DNA of 64,000 nt from Limosilactobacillus panis (GTDB lineage Bacteria; Bacillota; Bacilli; Lactobacillales; Lactobacillaceae), in assembly GCF_019797825.1 (NCBI RefSeq), contig NZ_CP081855.1:1240001-1304000 (forward strand), given 5' to 3'. Under the pieces are notes generated by a model. The model saw only the letters and a program-made list of their open reading frames with translations. It was not told where the DNA came from and searched no databases. Shown one piece after another: positions 36,284 through 48,794 of this stretch (the first letter of the stretch is position 1; the number at the start of each line of letters is the position of its first letter). The position numbers and the translations under genes are program-made.

Positions 36284-36327
36284 CGAACAGGCGTTCTTAT
36301 GATATATTTTAAACGAACAAATGTTTG
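36284..36327 (+). promoter_or_regulatory. Two LexA (SOS) boxes on the umuC-like promoter
   Basis: CGAACAGGCGTTCT (36284-36297) and CGAACAAATGTTTG (36314-36327) both fit the Gram-positive LexA site CGAAC-n4-GTTYG closely (first box: last base differs). A -10 TATATT lies between them (36303-36308) and the putative -35 overlaps the first box, so bound LexA would cover the promoter. Confidence 0.85.
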
Positions 36328-36338
36328 GAGAAGGTAAC

Positions 36339-37636
36339 ATGGATTATTCAAACGAACCCACGGGAGTTTCCCTGGTAATTGACAACAAATCTTTTTACGC
36401 GACGGTTGAATGTGCAATGCGGGGCCTTGACCCCCTCACAACCCCGCTCGTGGTCATGTCAGAGGCGGCCAACACCGTGGAGGTTTAATACTCGCCTCCT
36501 CTCCCATGGCCAAAAAGCTTTTTCATATTTCGAACGTCAACCGCAAGCGTGACATCCCCAATGATGGACGCCTAATCGTTGTTCCCCCACGGATGAACCT
36601 CTACATTGAAAAGAACCTGGCGGTCAACCATATTTTTAACCAGTACAGTGCCGATGAGGACCTCCTCCCCTATTCCATCGATGAATCAATCCTGGATATT
36701 ACCCACTCTTGGCACCTCTTCGGTAACAATATTCTCCAGGTAATCCGGAAAATCCAGCACCAGGTAAAAGAAGAACAAGGGTTAGTAACTACGGTCGGCC
36801 TCGGTAATAACCCCCTCCAGGCCAAAATTGCCCTTGATATCTACGCCAAGCACAACCAAGAGTTTATCGGCGTCATCACGAACCAGACGGTCAAGCAAAA
36901 GATTTGGACCATCCCCCAAATTACCGACGTTTGGGGAATCAACCGCCGGACCCAGGCGAATCTCGCCCGACTTGGTATCCATAACATGGACCAGCTTGCC
37001 CACTGCAACCAGTATGAATTAAAAAAGGCACTGGGCATCATTGGAACTCAACTGTACGCGACGGCGTGGGGAATCGACCGGACATGCCTCCAGGAAAAAA
37101 TCCTCCATAAGGACAAGTCACTGGGTAATTCTCAGGTACTGCCTCGCGACTACTGTGAGCAGGGTGAAATTGAAGTAGTAATCAAAGAAATTGGTGCCCA
37201 GGTGGCGGCCCGCTTACGTGCCCACAACAAGCAGTGTCACGGTGTCTACCTGCGAATCGGCTATTCATTAGGTGTCGAAGATGCAGATGGGCGAACCGGG
37301 TTTGCCCACGCGCTCAAGTTGAGTGACGCAACGGCGGAGACAACCACCATTAACCGCCAACTTATCTTTATTTTTGAAAAATATTGGAACCAGCAAGCAC
37401 CGGTCCGGACGGTTGCCGTCTCTTGTACGGGCCTTACTTCCCGTTATGGTGAACAATTAAATATCTTCAATGTTCCCAAGCCGTCAGCAATCAGTCTGGA
37501 AAAAACGATGGATACTATTCGAAGAAGGTATGGTAAAACAGCCATCATCCGGGCAAACAATCTGAAGAAGGGTGGGACCTTTATTGAACGTGCAGGACTT
37601 GTTGGCGGCCACAGTGGCGGACAAAGCCTGGAATAG
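36339..37636 (+). pseudogene. Y-family DNA polymerase (UmuC/UvrX-like), interrupted by one frameshift
   Basis: The ATG at 36339 (GGAGAAGG ahead) opens a frame reading VSLVIDNKSFYATVECAMRG, the first catalytic Asp block, and stops after EAANTVEV. If one G is restored at about 36477 it continues NTGGGLILASSPMAKK and on without break through the catalytic YSIDESILDIT (SIDE motif), helix-hairpin-helix WGINRRTQANLARLGI and the little-finger domain to 37636, 432 residues in all, a normal length. Without the repair only the downstream part from ATG 36506 would be made, lacking the first catalytic Asp. SOS-controlled lesion-bypass polymerase by family; recent mutation or base-calling error. Confidence 0.88.
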
Positions 37637-38425: not shown

Positions 38426-38514
38426 TATAATAATAGCGAAGGTGATAATGCAATCACCTTCGCCAACATACTTCTACTAGGGGAACTATGACGTGGGTGC
38501 CATGGCTCCCTTAG
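38426..38514 (+). ncRNA. Candidate structured RNA or leader with mini-ORF
   Basis: A perfect -10 (TATAAT, 38426-38431) is followed by an 11-bp perfect hairpin (38436-38446 with 38453-38463) and an 8-bp stem (38477-38484 with 38507-38514, one G-U). The second stem encloses an eight-codon frame, MTWVPWLP, 38488-38514, with AGGGG four bases ahead; the stem hides that site. No T-run follows and no known riboswitch consensus is matched. The -35 is poor. Confidence 0.35.
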
Positions 38515-38605
38515 ATATTTTACCATTAAATTTATTTTTTACTTCTAAAAATTTCGGTCAAACTGCTATTTTTCAAATAAACTAACAAAAAGTTAGCAAT
38601 TGCCA

Positions 38606-38634
38606 TTGACATAAAATTAAAAACGGATTAAAAT
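38606..38634 (+). promoter_or_regulatory. Promoter of the Cys leader and ABC importer
   Basis: Perfect TTGACA (38606-38611), 17-base spacer, TAAAAT (38629-38634), 33 bases before the leader-peptide ATG. Confidence 0.88.
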
Positions 38635-38666
38635 ACAAGCAATCATTACGAAAGGGGTACGATTTA

Positions 38667-38765
38667 ATGCTGAACTCTGCTATGCCAGCTCAAGTTTGTT
38701 GTTCATGTTGCTCTTCTTGCAACGTGTCTTTTGGCATAGGGAAAATTCAGTATTCGTACTGCTAG
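38667..38765 (+). CDS. Cysteine-rich leader peptide (attenuation uORF)
   Basis: 32 codons with ATG 38667 and AAAGGGG nine bases ahead. The middle reads QVCCSCCSSCNV: five Cys codons (38697-38720) interleaved with Ser, and a sixth Cys is the last codon before TAG. A small hairpin (CAGTA-TTCG-TACTG, 38748-38761) lies over the final codons. It sits between a near-perfect promoter and two terminator-like hairpins ahead of an amino acid importer, as in classical ribosome-mediated attenuation, with cysteine as the likely sensed amino acid. Read directly from sequence; the regulatory role is inferred. Confidence 0.8.
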   Translation: MLNSAMPAQVCCSCCSSCNVSFGIGKIQYSYC

Positions 38766-38775
38766 TTTAAAGCAT

Positions 38776-38802
38776 AACTGGGTCAGTCCATGCCCGGTTT
38801 TT
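38776..38802 (+). terminator. First hairpin of the Cys attenuator
   Basis: AACTGGG (38776-38782) pairs with CCCGGTT (38793-38799), loop of 10, followed by TTTTT. Starts 10 bases after the leader stop. Confidence 0.6.
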
Positions 38803-38810
38803 CAAAAGCT

Positions 38811-38850
38811 AAGCCCGCGATTCTGGATTGAATTGTAGGCTTTTTTGTTT
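38811..38850 (+). terminator. Second hairpin of the Cys attenuator (strong terminator)
   Basis: AAGCC/GGCTT (38811-38815 with 38838-38842) continued by CGATTC/GAATTG-type pairs after one mismatch, then TTTTTTGTTTTT. It lies 34 bases before the first permease gene, so it must be avoided for expression. Confidence 0.75.
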
Positions 38851-38884
38851 TTAACTAGCTAATGATCAAAGGAGGTTGAAGTAA

Positions 38885-39544
38885 ATGAATTGGACAGTGA
38901 TTCAGCAAAGTCTTCCTGAATTCGCCCAGGGATTCAAATTAACCCTGTGGCTCTCATTTGTCGGGATCATTGGGGCAATCATTGTTGGAATCATCAGCAG
39001 CTTAAGCCAGTACTTCCGGGTTCCGGTTGTTGGAAAGATTGTTGGTGCCTACGTCGAAATCGCCCGGAACACGCCTTTGCTTATCCAGCTATTTTTCTTA
39101 TATTATGCTTTCCCGGTAATGGGAATTAAAATGGCGGCCCAGACCTGTGGGATTATCGGTCTGATATTCCTCGGTGGGGCCTACATGGCAGAAGGTTTTA
39201 CCGGCGGTTTCAACGGGGTTAGTAAAAGCCAACTCGACAGTGGCCGGGCGCTAGGGATGAGCGATTTCCAGCTTGCCCGCTACATCGTCTTCCCCCAAGG
39301 ATTTGCCCTGAGTATGCCGGCCCTGGCAGCCAACATCATTTTCCTAATCAAGGAAACGTCGATTTTCTCGGTGATTGCCATCCCGGAACTGACCAATACC
39401 GCATTGGATTTGATTGGGATGTACTACCAATCCAACGAATACCTATTCGTCCTGGTCGTCGCCTACGCAATCATCTTGATTCCACTAATTGTCTTCTTAA
39501 CCTGGCTCGAAAGGAGGGTTCGCTATGGCACATTCGGGGATTAA
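38885..39544 (+). CDS. Polar amino acid ABC transporter permease 1
   Basis: 219 residues with about five transmembrane helices, HisMQ/GlnP-type inner-membrane subunit. The EAA loop (SQLDSGRALGMSDFQLARYIVFPQ split around GRALGMS, about 118-141) contacts the ATPase. Conserved RNTPLLIQLFFLYYA near 60-74. AAAGGAGG lies ahead. Overlaps the second permease by 20 bases. Controlled by the leader described at 38667; that argues for a cystine/cysteine substrate. Confidence 0.92.
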   Translation: MNWTVIQQSLPEFAQGFKLTLWLSFVGIIGAIIVGIISSLSQYFRVPVVGKIVGAYVEIARNTPLLIQLFFLYYAFPVMGIKMAAQTCGIIGLIFLGGAYMAEGFTGGFNGVSKSQLDSGRALGMSDFQLARYIVFPQGFALSMPALAANIIFLIKETSIFSVIAIPELTNTALDLIGMYYQSNEYLFVLVVAYAIILIPLIVFLTWLERRVRYGTFGD

Positions 39545-40202
39545 CGTTTTATTTGAAGGCACTAACTTCGCCCGCTTGATGGGTGGCCTCTGGACCGCCG
39601 TGTGGATTGCGGCCATTTCACTCATAATCGGCCTGGCCCTCGGCACCATCCTGGGGATGCTGCGAACCCTGCACAACCAGGTCATCCGCTTTATCCTCCT
39701 GATGTACCTGGAGTTTTTCCGGATTGTTCCAACCGTCGTCCTGCTTTTCCTTGCTTATTACATCCTGCCCCGCCAGTTTAACGTTAACTGGCCGGCAACC
39801 TGGATGGCTGTTTTGGCCTTCTCCCTATGGGTATCCGCTGAATTTAGCGATATCGTCCGGGGGGCGCTGGAATCCATCCCCGTCCACCAGCGGGAATCTG
39901 GCTTGGCCCTCGGCTTGAACCAGTGGCAGCTCTTCCGCTACGTCTTGCTTCCCCAAGCAATCCGCCTGGAACTACCGGCAACGATCAACCTGGCAACCCG
40001 GGTCATCAAGACAACCTCCCTACTGTTAATGATCAGCATCATGGACGTGATCAACGTTGGTCAGCAAATCATCGAAGCTAACAACCAGAACTACCCAACG
40101 GGGGTCTTCTGGGTCTACGGTTTAATCTTTATCCTCTACTTTATCATCGACTACCCCCTTTCCCGGTGGGCTAAACACTTAACCGCCAAGCAGAAATACT
40201 AA
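39525..40202 (+). CDS. Polar amino acid ABC transporter permease 2
   Basis: 225 residues, second HisMQ-type permease, forming a heterodimer with the first. EAA loop with ESGLALGLNQWQLFRYVLLPQ (split here around GLALGLN, about 128-148) and EFFRIVPTVVLLFLAYY near 62-78. The start overlaps the preceding gene, with AAAGGAGG just before it inside that gene. Sixteen bases separate it from the ATPase gene. Confidence 0.92.
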   Translation: MAHSGINVLFEGTNFARLMGGLWTAVWIAAISLIIGLALGTILGMLRTLHNQVIRFILLMYLEFFRIVPTVVLLFLAYYILPRQFNVNWPATWMAVLAFSLWVSAEFSDIVRGALESIPVHQRESGLALGLNQWQLFRYVLLPQAIRLELPATINLATRVIKTTSLLLMISIMDVINVGQQIIEANNQNYPTGVFWVYGLIFILYFIIDYPLSRWAKHLTAKQKY

Positions 40203-40218: not shown

Positions 40219-40959
40219 ATGGCAGAAGAAATATTAAAAGTTGAACACCTTGATAAATACTATGGGGACTGGCAAGCCCTCCACGACATTAACTTTTCAA
40301 TCAATAAGGGTGAAGTGGTCACCCTACTGGGGCCTTCAGGTTCTGGTAAAAGTACCCTGATCAGGACCCTCAATGGCCTGGAGTCTTACCGCAAGGGTAC
40401 GATCTACTTCCAAGGGAAAAAGGTTGACCCTAATCCTAAAGAATGGCAGGCCCTCCGTCAAAAGATTGGCATGGTCTTTCAGAGCTACGACCTCTTCCCC
40501 AACCTGACCGTGATGGATAATATCCTCCTGGCCCCCACCAAGGTTCAGGGTCGCGATAAGGAGGAAGTGCGTAAGGAAGCCCTGGCCTTGTTAGACCGGG
40601 TGGAACTGCGAAAACACGCGGATTCATACCCCCGCCAGCTTTCAGGAGGCCAGAAACAGCGGATTGCGATTGTCCGCGCCCTGGCCATGCACCCGGAACT
40701 GATGCTCTTCGATGAGGTTACCGCTTCGCTCGACCCAGAGATGGTCCGCGGCGTCCTCAAGATCATTAAGGAGCTATCAGACCAGGACCACATGACCATG
40801 ATTATTGTCACTCACGAAATGAACTTTGCTGCTAAGATTGCTGACAAGGTTCTCTTCCTTGAAAAGGGCAAGATCTTAGAAGAGACACCGGGAAAGCAAT
40901 TCTTTGACCACCCCCAGACGGACCGGGCAGCCGAGTTCTTGAATAGTATGGATTTCTAA
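40219..40959 (+). CDS. Polar amino acid ABC transporter ATP-binding protein
   Basis: 246 residues. Walker A GPSGSGKST (about 35-43), Q-loop, signature LSGGQKQRIAIVRAL (about 140-154), Walker B LMLFDEVTASLDPEMV (about 160-175) with the catalytic Glu, H-loop VTHEM near 201. Glutamine/polar amino acid importer class. A normal ribosome site (GAGAAGGTG) precedes it. Confidence 0.94.
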   Translation: MAEEILKVEHLDKYYGDWQALHDINFSINKGEVVTLLGPSGSGKSTLIRTLNGLESYRKGTIYFQGKKVDPNPKEWQALRQKIGMVFQSYDLFPNLTVMDNILLAPTKVQGRDKEEVRKEALALLDRVELRKHADSYPRQLSGGQKQRIAIVRALAMHPELMLFDEVTASLDPEMVRGVLKIIKELSDQDHMTMIIVTHEMNFAAKIADKVLFLEKGKILEETPGKQFFDHPQTDRAAEFLNSMDF

Positions 40960-40980
40960 TTAAAAAGGAGATTGATAATT

Positions 40981-41838
40981 ATGAAGTTTAATTGGAAGAA
41001 AATCATTGCCGCTGGTGCCGTGCTCGCCGGCGCCGCAGCCCTCTTTGTGGGCGCTAATGCTGTTAAGCCAACCCACGTTCACGCCGCTGATAACGCCAGT
41101 ACAGTGAGCGCAATCAAGAAGCGGGGCCAACTCCGGGTCGCTGTCTTTGGGGACCTGCCACCATACGGCTGGGTCAACAAGGATGGCAAGCGGGTCGGCT
41201 ATGACGTTGAATTAGCCCGCCGGATGGCCAAGGACCTGGGCGTTAAGCCAAAGTTCGTCCAGGTTAACGCCAACAACCGGGTGGACACTCTAAACTCAAA
41301 CAAGGCTGACATCGTCCTGGCTAACTTCACGGTTACGCCAGAACGGAAGCAGGCCGTTTCATTTGTTAAGCCATACATGAAGGTTTCTGTTGGGGTCGTA
41401 TCACCAAAGAACAAGAAGATCACCAAGATCAGCCAACTGAAGGGCAAGAAGGTCATCGTTACCAAGGGGACTACGGCCGAAAACTACTTCACCACGAAGC
41501 AGCGGGGCGTCCAACTCCTGAAGTTCGACTCCAAGACACAACAGTTTAACGCCCTCAAGAACAACCGGGGTGCGGCCCTGGCCGACGATAACTCCTACCT
41601 TTACGCTTGGGTCAAGAAGAATCCAAAGTACACCGTTGGGATCAAGAGCGTGGGCCCTCACCAATACATCGCCCCGGCAGTTAAGAAGGGCAACACTTCC
41701 CTCCTCAACTGGAGTAACAAGGAAATCACTAAGCTGAACAAGGAAGGCTTCTTCACCCAGGACTACAACCACCAACTGAAGCCATACTTCGGTAGTGAAG
41801 TTAAACCATCCGACATTGTTCTAAAGCAGGGTAAGTAA
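40981..41838 (+). CDS. Extracellular solute-binding protein of the amino acid importer
   Basis: 285 residues. Signal peptide: KFNWKK, hydrophobic stretch about 8-27, then a likely cleavage after VHA. The SBP_bac_3 fold follows: IKKRGQLRVAVFGDLPPYGW, DVELARRMAKDLGV, NSNKADIVLANFTVTPERKQ and SVGPHQY. There is no lipobox cysteine, so it is not a lipoprotein anchored in the usual way and must be held by its permeases or released. AAGGAG lies 10 bases before ATG 40981. A strong terminator follows. Confidence 0.93.
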   Translation: MKFNWKKIIAAGAVLAGAAALFVGANAVKPTHVHAADNASTVSAIKKRGQLRVAVFGDLPPYGWVNKDGKRVGYDVELARRMAKDLGVKPKFVQVNANNRVDTLNSNKADIVLANFTVTPERKQAVSFVKPYMKVSVGVVSPKNKKITKISQLKGKKVIVTKGTTAENYFTTKQRGVQLLKFDSKTQQFNALKNNRGAALADDNSYLYAWVKKNPKYTVGIKSVGPHQYIAPAVKKGNTSLLNWSNKEITKLNKEGFFTQDYNHQLKPYFGSEVKPSDIVLKQGK

Positions 41839-46885: not shown

Positions 46886-48794
46886 ATCGAGTAGGAGGTA
46901 ATTGATTAGTTCAATTACCGACCTCTCACACCACCGTACGTACGGTTCCGTATACGGCGGTTCGACAACTTAATCACTTTGAATTGACTGGAGCGTCTTG
47001 GACATATTTATTAGTCCAAGGTGCTCCAGTTTTCTATTTGTTAGAGAATAACTCAAAGTCTTACTGTGTGCGGTTCGCCAGTAGCCCTTACGGGTACTAG
47101 CGAAGACATATGCATCACGATAAGACAATCCGAGCCTTTGTAAGTTAGTAATCTTAGTTTTGAATTTCTTCCATTGCTTCCAGATATATTGCCTTATTCG
47201 CGCCCTTAACCACTGGTCAAGTCGTTGAATAAAGCCAGTCAGTTTCCCAATTGAGTAATATTGAAGCCAACCCCGCATTTTGCGATGAATTTCCTCAAAC
47301 ATTTGCTCAATGGATACTCCCCGATTGCGCTTTGTTAACAGCTTTAGTGCTTGCTTAACTCGCTTTTGTGATTGCTTGGCCGGTCGGGCATAGGCACCGT
47401 TACGGTCTACACCTAGTGAAAAGCCAAGAAACTTCAATCTTAGGGGACTACCAACTTTAGTTTTATCTGGATTAACTTTAACCTTCAATTGCTTTTCGAA
47501 AAAATGGGTAATACTGCGCATTACTCGTTCTCCCGCCCGTTGACTTTTAACATAAATATTACAATCATCCGCATAGCGTACAAAGTGATGGCCACGTCTG
47601 GTCAACTCTTTATCCAACTCATTTAGGTAAATATTCGCCAGTAATGGTGATAATGGTCCACCTTGCGGCGTTCCTTTGTCACTCCTAGCGAAAAGCCCAT
47701 GATCTAAGACCCCGCTAGTCAAAAACTTGCGGATAAGTCTTAGCGTCCACGGGTCATTAATATATTGTTGGAGGTACTTAATCATCAAATCATGGTTGAC
47801 GTTATCGAAATAGGCCTTCAGGTCTAAGTCGACTACTCTTCGATATCCCTGATTATATAGTTTAACTACCTTTGCGATTGCGTCTTGGGCTCCACGATGA
47901 GGGCGAAAGCCAAAACTATTATCCGAGAAAATACGCTCAAAGATTGGCGTGAGCACTTGGGCAACTGCTTGTTGGACCATGCGGTCCACTACCGTTGGTA
48001 TCCCTAGTTTTCTCACTCCACCGTTGGGCTTGGGAATTTCCACTCGTTTAACCGGTACTGGCTTATAATTGCCTTCACGTAGGTTGGTGATTAACTCCGT
48101 TTTATTTTCTCTAAGATATTGCAGGAGGCCATCGACAGTCATATCATCAATGCCCGCTGCTCCTTTATTTCTCTTAACTCGCAAATAAGCCTGGTTCAGG
48201 TTATTGCGGTCCAAGACTTGGTCTTGGATAGTGACACTCATACCTTTACCTTCACCATAATCGGTACTACGCGCCCTTGTGTACTTTTGGTTTTCCAAAC
48301 CTATCCTCGACAAGCGGTCAGCTTGTGGTTCTGTTTTCTGCGATTGTCGCACCTGATTACACCTCCGATATAAGTTATAAGTTATTATCGTTCGGTCCTT
48401 CATCTAATTAATTAGACTACTATGACCTCGGCTGACTTCTGGCTTACTCAACACAACATCACTGCTATGCTTGCTTCTGTGGAATTTCATTCATTCCTCT
48501 TGTCGGAAACGTGTAGGTCAGATCTCCCCGGGTAAGAATATTAACTTTCGTACCATGTCACCGTTAGCTTTACTGAAAGCAACTTCGAGTAGTATTGGAC
48601 TTTAGTTTGTCTAGCAACCTTATCCAGTTACTCTCAGCCTTATAGCTACTTCTTGTTCATCGGTGCAGCACTTTGCCTTAGACTTCCTTCAGATTCCACC
48701 TCACAGCGGACACCCTTGTCCTCGGCTCATGGTTCCGACTACTACGGCCCATAGTGGACTTTCACCACCTAGCTAATACCCATGCCGGGCGCAC
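46886..48794 (-). mobile_element. Group IIC-type intron with maturase
   Basis: About 1.9 kb. The 5' end is GTGCGCCCGGCATG at 48794; the 3' end is CCTACTCGAT at 46886. Domain V is recognisable just before it as GCCGTATACGGAACCGTACG (about 46930-46962) and domain VI as TAATTGAACTAATCAATTA. The 5' exon is a terminator hairpin plus TTTTTGTTGTA (48795-48833), the usual target of class C introns, which insert after terminators. The maturase lies in domain IV. 48404-48794 holds only the 5' ribozyme domains. Confidence 0.88.
46970..48241 (-). CDS. ltrA: Group II intron reverse transcriptase/maturase
   Basis: 423 residues from ATG 48241 (GAAGG seven bases ahead); the frame is open 54 codons further into the intron RNA. 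RT blocks: NKGAAGIDDM, KRVEIPKPNGGVRKLGIPTV (RT2), the RT3/4 FGFRPHRGAQDAI, GTPQGGPLSPLLANI (RT4) and the catalytic FVRYADD (RT5), followed by maturase X. No HNH endonuclease domain, fitting class C. Intact, so the intron may still be mobile. Confidence 0.95.
   Translation of the reverse strand: MSVTIQDQVLDRNNLNQAYLRVKRNKGAAGIDDMTVDGLLQYLRENKTELITNLREGNYKPVPVKRVEIPKPNGGVRKLGIPTVVDRMVQQAVAQVLTPIFERIFSDNSFGFRPHRGAQDAIAKVVKLYNQGYRRVVDLDLKAYFDNVNHDLMIKYLQQYINDPWTLRLIRKFLTSGVLDHGLFARSDKGTPQGGPLSPLLANIYLNELDKELTRRGHHFVRYADDCNIYVKSQRAGERVMRSITHFFEKQLKVKVNPDKTKVGSPLRLKFLGFSLGVDRNGAYARPAKQSQKRVKQALKLLTKRNRGVSIEQMFEEIHRKMRGWLQYYSIGKLTGFIQRLDQWLRARIRQYIWKQWKKFKTKITNLQRLGLSYRDAYVFASTRKGYWRTAHSKTLSYSLTNRKLEHLGLINMSKTLQSIQSD

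Follow-up and report, generated by a model that had tools for sequence, protein, structure and literature searches.

A predicted cysteine-codon attenuator ahead of an amino acid ABC importer in Limosilactobacillus panis, with related leaders in the Lactobacillaceae

The leader region and the importer genes

In the stretch of Limosilactobacillus panis DNA analysed here (64,000 nt in all, hereafter the window), a promoter, a short cysteine-rich frame and a predicted intrinsic terminator precede four genes of an amino acid ABC importer. All of these features lie on the forward strand and are as follows.

38606-38634, + strand: sigma-70 type promoter, TTGACA-17-TAAAAT (11/12 matches)
38651-38657, + strand: leader ribosome-binding site AAAGGGG, overlapping segment 1
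38654-38688, + strand: segment 1 (ribosome site, AUG and codons 2-7), partner of segment 2
38667-38765, + strand: leader frame MLNSAMPAQVCCSCCSSCNVSFGIGKIQYSYC, 32 codons with six Cys codons (11, 12, 14, 15, 18 and 32)
38697-38720, + strand: putative regulatory Cys codons 11, 12, 14, 15 and 18 (UGU UGU. UGU UGC .. UGC)
38704-38726, + strand: inner hairpin over the Cys codons (CAUGUUGC...GCAACGUG), paired in 96.8% of cells across the 14 aligned leaders
38731-38766, + strand: segment 2, the end of the leader frame; partner of segment 1 or, as putative antiterminator, of segment 3
38776-38799, + strand: hairpin in the spacer with a U run at its end, terminator-like in the window, not conserved on the 14-leader alignment
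38808-38827, + strand: segment 3, the terminator 5' arm and loop, complementary to segment 2
38811-38846, + strand: predicted intrinsic terminator (3:4), a hairpin at 38811-38842 and a U run to 38846, 96.2% of cells paired
38870-38876, + strand: importer ribosome-binding site AGGAGGT
38885-39544, + strand: ABC amino acid importer, permease 1
39525-40202, + strand: ABC amino acid importer, permease 2
40219-40959, + strand: ABC amino acid importer, ATPase
40972-41838, + strand: substrate-binding protein

A short predicted frame with a ribosome site is thus found directly 3' of a promoter, which is the arrangement of a leader-peptide attenuator. The initial annotation of this region had described a consensus promoter, a good ribosome site and a 32-codon Cys-rich frame with a terminal Cys, and these three elements are all confirmed, the ribosome site starting at 38651 and the frame including Cys codon 32. 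The terminal Cys codon was seen in the window and in its panis relatives (L002 and L054), and these three sequences carry UAU in the frame where UAA is usual. The initial annotation had also placed a UUCG hairpin over the last codons; this hairpin is present (CAGUA-UUCG-UACUG), but it is weak when folded in the window (-2.7 kcal/mol), as opposed to the long hairpin in which the same stretch pairs with the leader ribosome site and first codons (-38.2 kcal/mol, z -4.9). Similarly, the two terminator-like hairpins that it had named both exist, with folding energies of -10.4 and -14.8 kcal/mol in the window, but on the alignment of 14 leaders only the second is conserved, the first falling in the variable spacer.

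The four genes 3' of the attenuator encode two permeases, an ATPase and a binding protein, in agreement with the importer that had been annotated there. By NCBIfam, the importer belongs among the polar amino acid importers, with no equivalog above its cut-off. The nearest solved relatives of the binding protein are 2yjp (E 1.5e-80) and 1xt8 (E 3.1e-71), with the next one far behind (E 2e-40). The titles of the two structures speak of amino acid binding proteins only; we take them to be the L-cysteine receptors of Neisseria gonorrhoeae and Campylobacter jejuni, respectively. The substrate of the importer is probably L-cysteine or cystine, as had been proposed initially and in agreement with these two relatives. 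Among the matches listed, the nearest named relative is Limosilactobacillus panis DSM 6035 (L054), in which permease 1 is 100% identical.

Several other features of the window were observed. A segment 5' of the promoter, at 38471-38528 (CTACTAGGGGAACT...GGCTCCCTTAGATATTTTACCAT), has close counterparts in two other loci (L004 and L005). A Y-family DNA polymerase-like gene at 36321-37636 appears to be interrupted, its front (36321-36488) and the rest (36506-37636) lying in separate frames, and group II intron domains are found at 46886-48710 on the minus strand.

Conservation of the leader and T-boxes in its place

An orthologous permease was found in 24 of the 50 Limosilactobacillus genomes at 71-100% identity (in L025 over residues 50-219 only), and adjacent Cys codons are present in a short upstream frame at all 24, among which L002/L003, L009/L012 and L010/L014 are near-identical pairs. 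In the 14 leaders that were aligned, codons 11, 14 and 15 encode Cys without exception and codon 18 does so in 12, with UGU/UGC exchange at codons 11, 15 and 18; conserved Cys codons with synonymous changes, which the initial annotation had set as a test, are therefore what the relatives display. Thirteen of these leaders have their first Cys at codon 11, and the remaining one has it at codon 10. In two leaders (L011 and L015), a one-base gap after the Cys codons shifts the frame, so that the end of the peptide is altered while the RNA arm is kept. The genus harbors leaders of 28-37 codons like that of the window, leaders with two Cys codons directly before the stop (L010, L014, L018 and L019) and further types (L016 and L020-L025). 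The leaders of the second type end in ...ACC-stop, and in L010, L014 and L019 CCTGTTGT resembles by eye the complement of the 3' side of the terminator, so the Cys codons there may form part of the terminator 5' arm.

A control was performed on the best 80 of 162 relatives (the named loci), with a Cys-rich frame defined as one with at least three Cys, including CC, behind a ribosome site. Where the upstream intergenic DNA of an importer gene is 100 nt or longer, such a frame lies ahead of it in 33 of 78 cases, versus 3 of 264 other genes of the same loci, one of these three matches (L068) being itself a leader of the same class. Across 30 of these 80 loci, Cys makes up 0.46% of the long-frame residues. 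The Cys codons of the predicted leader peptide are both conserved and over-represented.

The initial annotation had held that loss of the Cys codons in close relatives would speak against its proposal. No loss occurs among the 24 orthologs of the genus, but outside it some Lactobacillus have the importer with fewer Cys codons or with no Cys leader found. The importer is preceded there by two Cys codons in L076, L083 (by eye) and L096 and by three in L080, and a scan of the upstream DNA found no Cys leader ahead of it in, for example, L055-L057 and L063. Our own scans found no Cys-rich frame and no T-box pattern at many of the named loci (the best 80 of 162 relatives). Outside the Lactobacillaceae, Cys-rich frames also precede related permeases in records that bear the names Lacrimispora, Hungatella, Herbinix, Paenibacillaceae and others. 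Such frames (e.g., ...NACCCSCCKFYMCHIE and ...RLCCFCCRCFARRDTVF...) were seen upstream of clostridial and other relatives of the permease in L119, L121, L122, L123, L125, L126, L128, L129, L130 and L132. A script detected a clear terminator in just some of the loci outside the family (L121, L123, L129 and L132), and we therefore claim less for them.

In Lentilactobacillus, Secundilactobacillus and Lactiplantibacillus, loci with a T-box-like leader ahead of the same importer were found. All six match RF00230 under an E-value threshold, at 49-71 bits and thus below the gathering score of 93, and at gathering RF00230 was found at none of seven related loci (L064 is among the seven and outside the later six). 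Six loci from related genera thus hold a T-box-like leader where the window has its Cys leader, which bears out the earlier suggestion that the Cys leader replaces a T-box. Within 500 nt upstream, the T-box sequence pattern occurs at 8 of the named loci (the best 80 of 162 relatives) and is absent from L054, the nearest relative among the matches listed; a search of the window leader against Rfam returned no family at gathering, RF00230 included. The specifier is UGC in L090 by alignment and in L105, L061 and L072 by our own reading. In the T-box-like leaders of L082 and L102, our reading of the alignment gave the specifier AUG (Met), not UGC (Cys). In addition, G267, a genome of the same genus as Lactiplantibacillus songbeiensis, carries a Cys leader, not a T-box, ahead of the importer (L191).

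The conservation of the RNA itself was assessed with 500 shuffles on the 14 aligned leaders, all of the type found in the window. In helix 1:2 together with the inner hairpin, 89.4% of cells are paired, both sides have changed in 13 of 38 pairs, and the covariation score is 0.276 versus 0.187 in shuffles, none of the 500 being as good. For the terminator (3:4), 96.2% of cells are paired and 6 of 13 pairs have changed on both sides (covariation 0.351 versus 0.216 shuffled; 0/500). Hairpins with compensatory changes in relatives, the other test set initially, were thus found for both helices. The putative antiterminator (2:3) is paired in 89.8% of cells, versus at most 45.5% when the segments are slid; just 2 of its 19 pairs have changed on both sides and its covariation score falls within the shuffles (141/500), with 9 cells changed on both sides versus 3.4 shuffled (4/500). 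Columns 18-114-184-201, one from each segment, change together as a chain: in 11 of 14 rows the pair in each of the three helices is a standard one, even as the columns switch between A-U and G-C types. When partners were swapped among 11 of the 14 leaders (three near-duplicates having been dropped) with 20000 permutations, cognate partners were better than swapped ones for 1:2 (0/20000), 3:4 (0/20000) and 2:3 (323/20000), while no cognate advantage was seen in the controls 1:3 (11202/20000) and 1:4 (8023/20000). A comparison of the 2:3 duplex with mononucleotide shuffles at single loci gave p<0.05 in 3 of 29; as the terminator finder missed the terminators of many loci, we do not lean on this test. 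Of the three helices, 2:3 is the least supported, its complementarity being conserved and its covariation weak. Judged by these alignments, the leader is a predicted four-segment attenuator with the alternatives 1:2, 2:3 (antiterminator) and 3:4 (terminator), and a predicted intrinsic terminator lies between the leader frame and the importer genes.

Proposed mechanism and competing explanations

We consider it very likely that the leader is a ribosome-mediated attenuator of transcription that senses charged tRNA-Cys and controls an ABC importer of L-cysteine (or cystine). The switch would most likely turn the importer on when cysteine-charged tRNA is scarce. With ample Cys-tRNA, ribosomes would enter segment 2, or would depart and allow 1:2 to close; with segment 2 occupied or held in 1:2, the terminator 3:4 would form and transcription would stop at about 38846. 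With scarce Cys-tRNA, a ribosome would stall at codons 11-15 and segment 1 would be kept busy, so that segment 2 would join segment 3, no terminator would form and the importer genes would be transcribed. The default state without translation would be OFF.

Fourteen transcripts, taken to the end of segment 3, were folded at minimum free energy under ribosome-sized masks, which is a crude model of this process. Without ribosomes, 1:2 is dominant in the 14 leaders, and with a ribosome at the stop codon, 2:3 retains 0-5 pairs in all 14. A single ribosome at codon 11 favours the full antiterminator (18 or 19 pairs) in 8 of the 14; in the leader of the window, a single stalled ribosome favours it at none of the stalls. 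The view of the initial annotation, that a ribosome stalled in the Cys run changes the folding downstream, needs a correction here: a single stall does not free the antiterminator of the window in this folding. With a second ribosome stacked behind the first, 2:3 (14-19 pairs) is favoured in all 14 leaders for stalls at Cys codons 10-15, and it fails for stalls at codons 17 and 18 (L013 and L017), at codon 18 (L107) and at the terminal Cys codon of the window. The distance from the AUG to the first Cys codon is about one ribosome length. Segment 1 coincides with the ribosome site of the leader itself and lies 5' of the Cys codons, so that a trailing ribosome on the start site would usually be needed to keep segment 1 open. 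Taken together, the outcomes of mask folding and the position of the first Cys codon point to a switch that usually requires a queue of two ribosomes, and the model suggests that antitermination depends on a second ribosome queued on the leader start site.

Attenuation might instead act on translation, with stalling altering access to a ribosome site, which we regard as very unlikely. Helix 1:2 does sequester such a site, and mycobacterial cysteine genes are said, in a passage citing Canestrari 2020, to be attenuated at the level of translation. However, the sequestered site is that of the leader, not of the importer, and in the window the conserved last hairpin and its U run end 38 nt before the importer start codon.

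Equally improbable, in our judgement, is a ribosome-arresting nascent peptide that responds to free cysteine or to the oxidation of thiols and not to tRNA charging. Arrest peptides exist and oxidation of nascent thiols is conceivable; however, by eye the leader types have little in common beyond the Cys codons, and at six loci of related genera the same place is taken by T-box-like leaders, members of a family that reads tRNA.

It is extremely unlikely that the frame encodes a working Cys-rich micropeptide, binding metals or thiols, and that the hairpins are merely a terminator with read-through. CCxxCC patterns resemble metal-binding motifs, and Asn19 and Phe22 are also invariant (14/14), but the Asn19 codon belongs to the stem of the inner hairpin, and that of Phe22 sits where helix 1:2 has its foot. 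Moreover, it is the Cys codons that the leader types share when compared by eye, the frameshifted peptide ends of L011 and L015 leave the RNA arm intact, and compensatory change in the RNA is strong. Finally, a chance frame over an ordinary terminator is almost certainly not the answer, given the adjacent Cys codons of 24/24 genus orthologs, the excess of Cys-rich frames ahead of importer genes over other genes (33/78 versus 3/264) and the covariation of the RNA helices.

A wider class of leaders and its relation to known systems

Two covariance models were used to search other genomes: R1, of the leader hairpin, and a second model, R2. In searches of more than 40 genomes, the filters were stricter and weak matches were lost. 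R1 matched in 14 of 50 genomes of the genus and in 26 of 397 genomes of the family, from 6 of 40 genera; a Cys-rich frame accompanies 20 of the 21 matches outside the genus. The match at L159 has no Cys frame and looks false. R2 matched 55 places in 52 of the 397 family genomes (the window's included), from 7 of 40 genera, four of which are Limosilactobacillus, Lactobacillus, Lactiplantibacillus and Liquorilactobacillus, and among 295 genomes of the order it matched 9, all of them Lactobacillaceae. A Cys-rich frame is present at all 55 places (in L191 with a weak ribosome site only), a count that, like that for R1, is partly circular, as both models hold sequence along with structure and include the stem that covers the Cys codons. 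On an alignment of 33 leaders fitted to R1 at an E-value of 0.005, with L005 (an antisense match) and L091 left out, 30 of 38 pairs have changed on both sides, with 193 such cells versus 69.9 shuffled, and covariation is 0.446 versus 0.199 shuffled and at most 0.101 when slid; the pair counts lean towards the R1 structure, as the alignment was fitted to it.

The genes 3' of the R2 places include an importer of the window's type at 9 of the 55 (five in the genus, and L152, L154, L184 and L191) and OppA-like binding proteins, judged by their first residues, at 43. A family search of three of the latter (L148, L151 and L161) placed them below NCBIfam cut-offs, with L148 above that of Pfam. In L158, which is the same place as L185, the leader is followed by a permease whose best model, below cut-off, is a cystine permease; in L164 it is followed by MetA, above the Pfam and below the NCBIfam cut-off, and in L190 by OsmC, above the Pfam cut-off. 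The same kind of predicted switch is found again before other genes, probably for Cys or Met supply, in several genera of lactobacilli. As far as the available text goes, an OppA-annotated protein of Listeria, CtaP, has been tied to cysteine uptake (PMC10269559). By eye, a second short stretch, MSPGCPC... or MSPGCCPC..., was seen between the attenuator and the binding-protein gene in at least L148, L149 and L153, and a stretch similar to MSPGCPC... lies 3' of the leader terminator and before the OppA-like gene in L155 and L157.

Whether all of this forms one system is a matter on which we stop somewhat short of even confidence: the structured Cys-leader RNAs of the Lactobacillaceae would be a class that defines a cysteine regulon, each a queue-gated attenuator trading places with T-boxes on the same operon in sister genera. 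Queue-gated here means that a stall would switch the genes ON only with another ribosome loaded behind, since segment 1 doubles as the ribosome site of the leader. If this joint reading is true, the regulon would comprise the cysteine importer, a cystine-type permease, OppA-like binding proteins, MetA and an OsmC protein; the OppA-like proteins would be predicted to take up cysteine or Cys peptides, and the switch would read Cys-tRNA charging and ribosome traffic together.

The E. coli trp, his and leu attenuators have leader peptides with codons for the sensed amino acid, mutually exclusive hairpins and a terminator before the genes. The leader described here resembles them in its short frame with sensed codons, its predicted exclusive hairpins and its predicted intrinsic terminator upstream of the genes. 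In trpL, segment 1 is covered by a single ribosome that has halted at the Trp codons. In the present leader, in contrast, segment 1 is formed by the ribosome site of the leader itself, and since it lies upstream of the Cys codons, a trailing ribosome seems to be needed.

Cys leaders, and leader peptides in Firmicutes, have already been published. According to the available text, cys operons of Mycobacterium have polycysteine leaders, and the Cys leaders of Actinobacteria lack conserved terminator hairpins, for which Rho has been suggested (Seliverstov 2005, PMC1262725); a later title calls the mycobacterial polycysteine frames leaderless (Canestrari 2020). As far as these accounts go, the mycobacterial leaders share with the present one the runs of Cys codons in short upstream frames with cysteine genes 3', whereas the leader of the window has a ribosome site and a conserved terminator and so does not fall into their class. 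Ahead of cysS, uORFC-8-2, reported in the accessible text only from Rhodobacterales (Brewer 2021, PMC8632094), likewise combines tandem Cys codons in a uORF with hairpins, a U run and a proposed ribosome-mediated attenuation; unlike here, and comparing by description, it has two prominent stems, the first of which holds the Cys codons (PMC8632094). Among the matches listed, which were titles and abstract starts with subscription papers mostly outside, none dealt with Cys leaders in Lactobacillaceae.

Our analyses thus offer a candidate cysteine-sensing RNA switch and a candidate cysteine regulon for lactobacilli, and they predict substrates for importers whose recognition so far stops at the level of amino acid or oligopeptide transport. 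A need for ribosome queueing, if real, would be a new and testable step in attenuation. Within the Firmicutes, rli60 of Listeria is likewise a ribosome-mediated transcription attenuator, but, from what is available of a review, it concerns branched-chain amino acids and a biosynthesis operon, ilv-leu (PMC11236296). Ahead of the hisS*/hisZ genes of bacilli, His leader peptides replace T-boxes, according to the available text of the report (PMC2965389). There, as here, a Firmicute leader peptide stands in for a T-box within an attenuated gene family; unlike that system, which concerns histidine and hisS paralogs in bacilli, the present one would concern cysteine, importers and probable sulfur supply in Lactobacillaceae, where T-box and leader-peptide control can be compared naturally on one orthologous operon.
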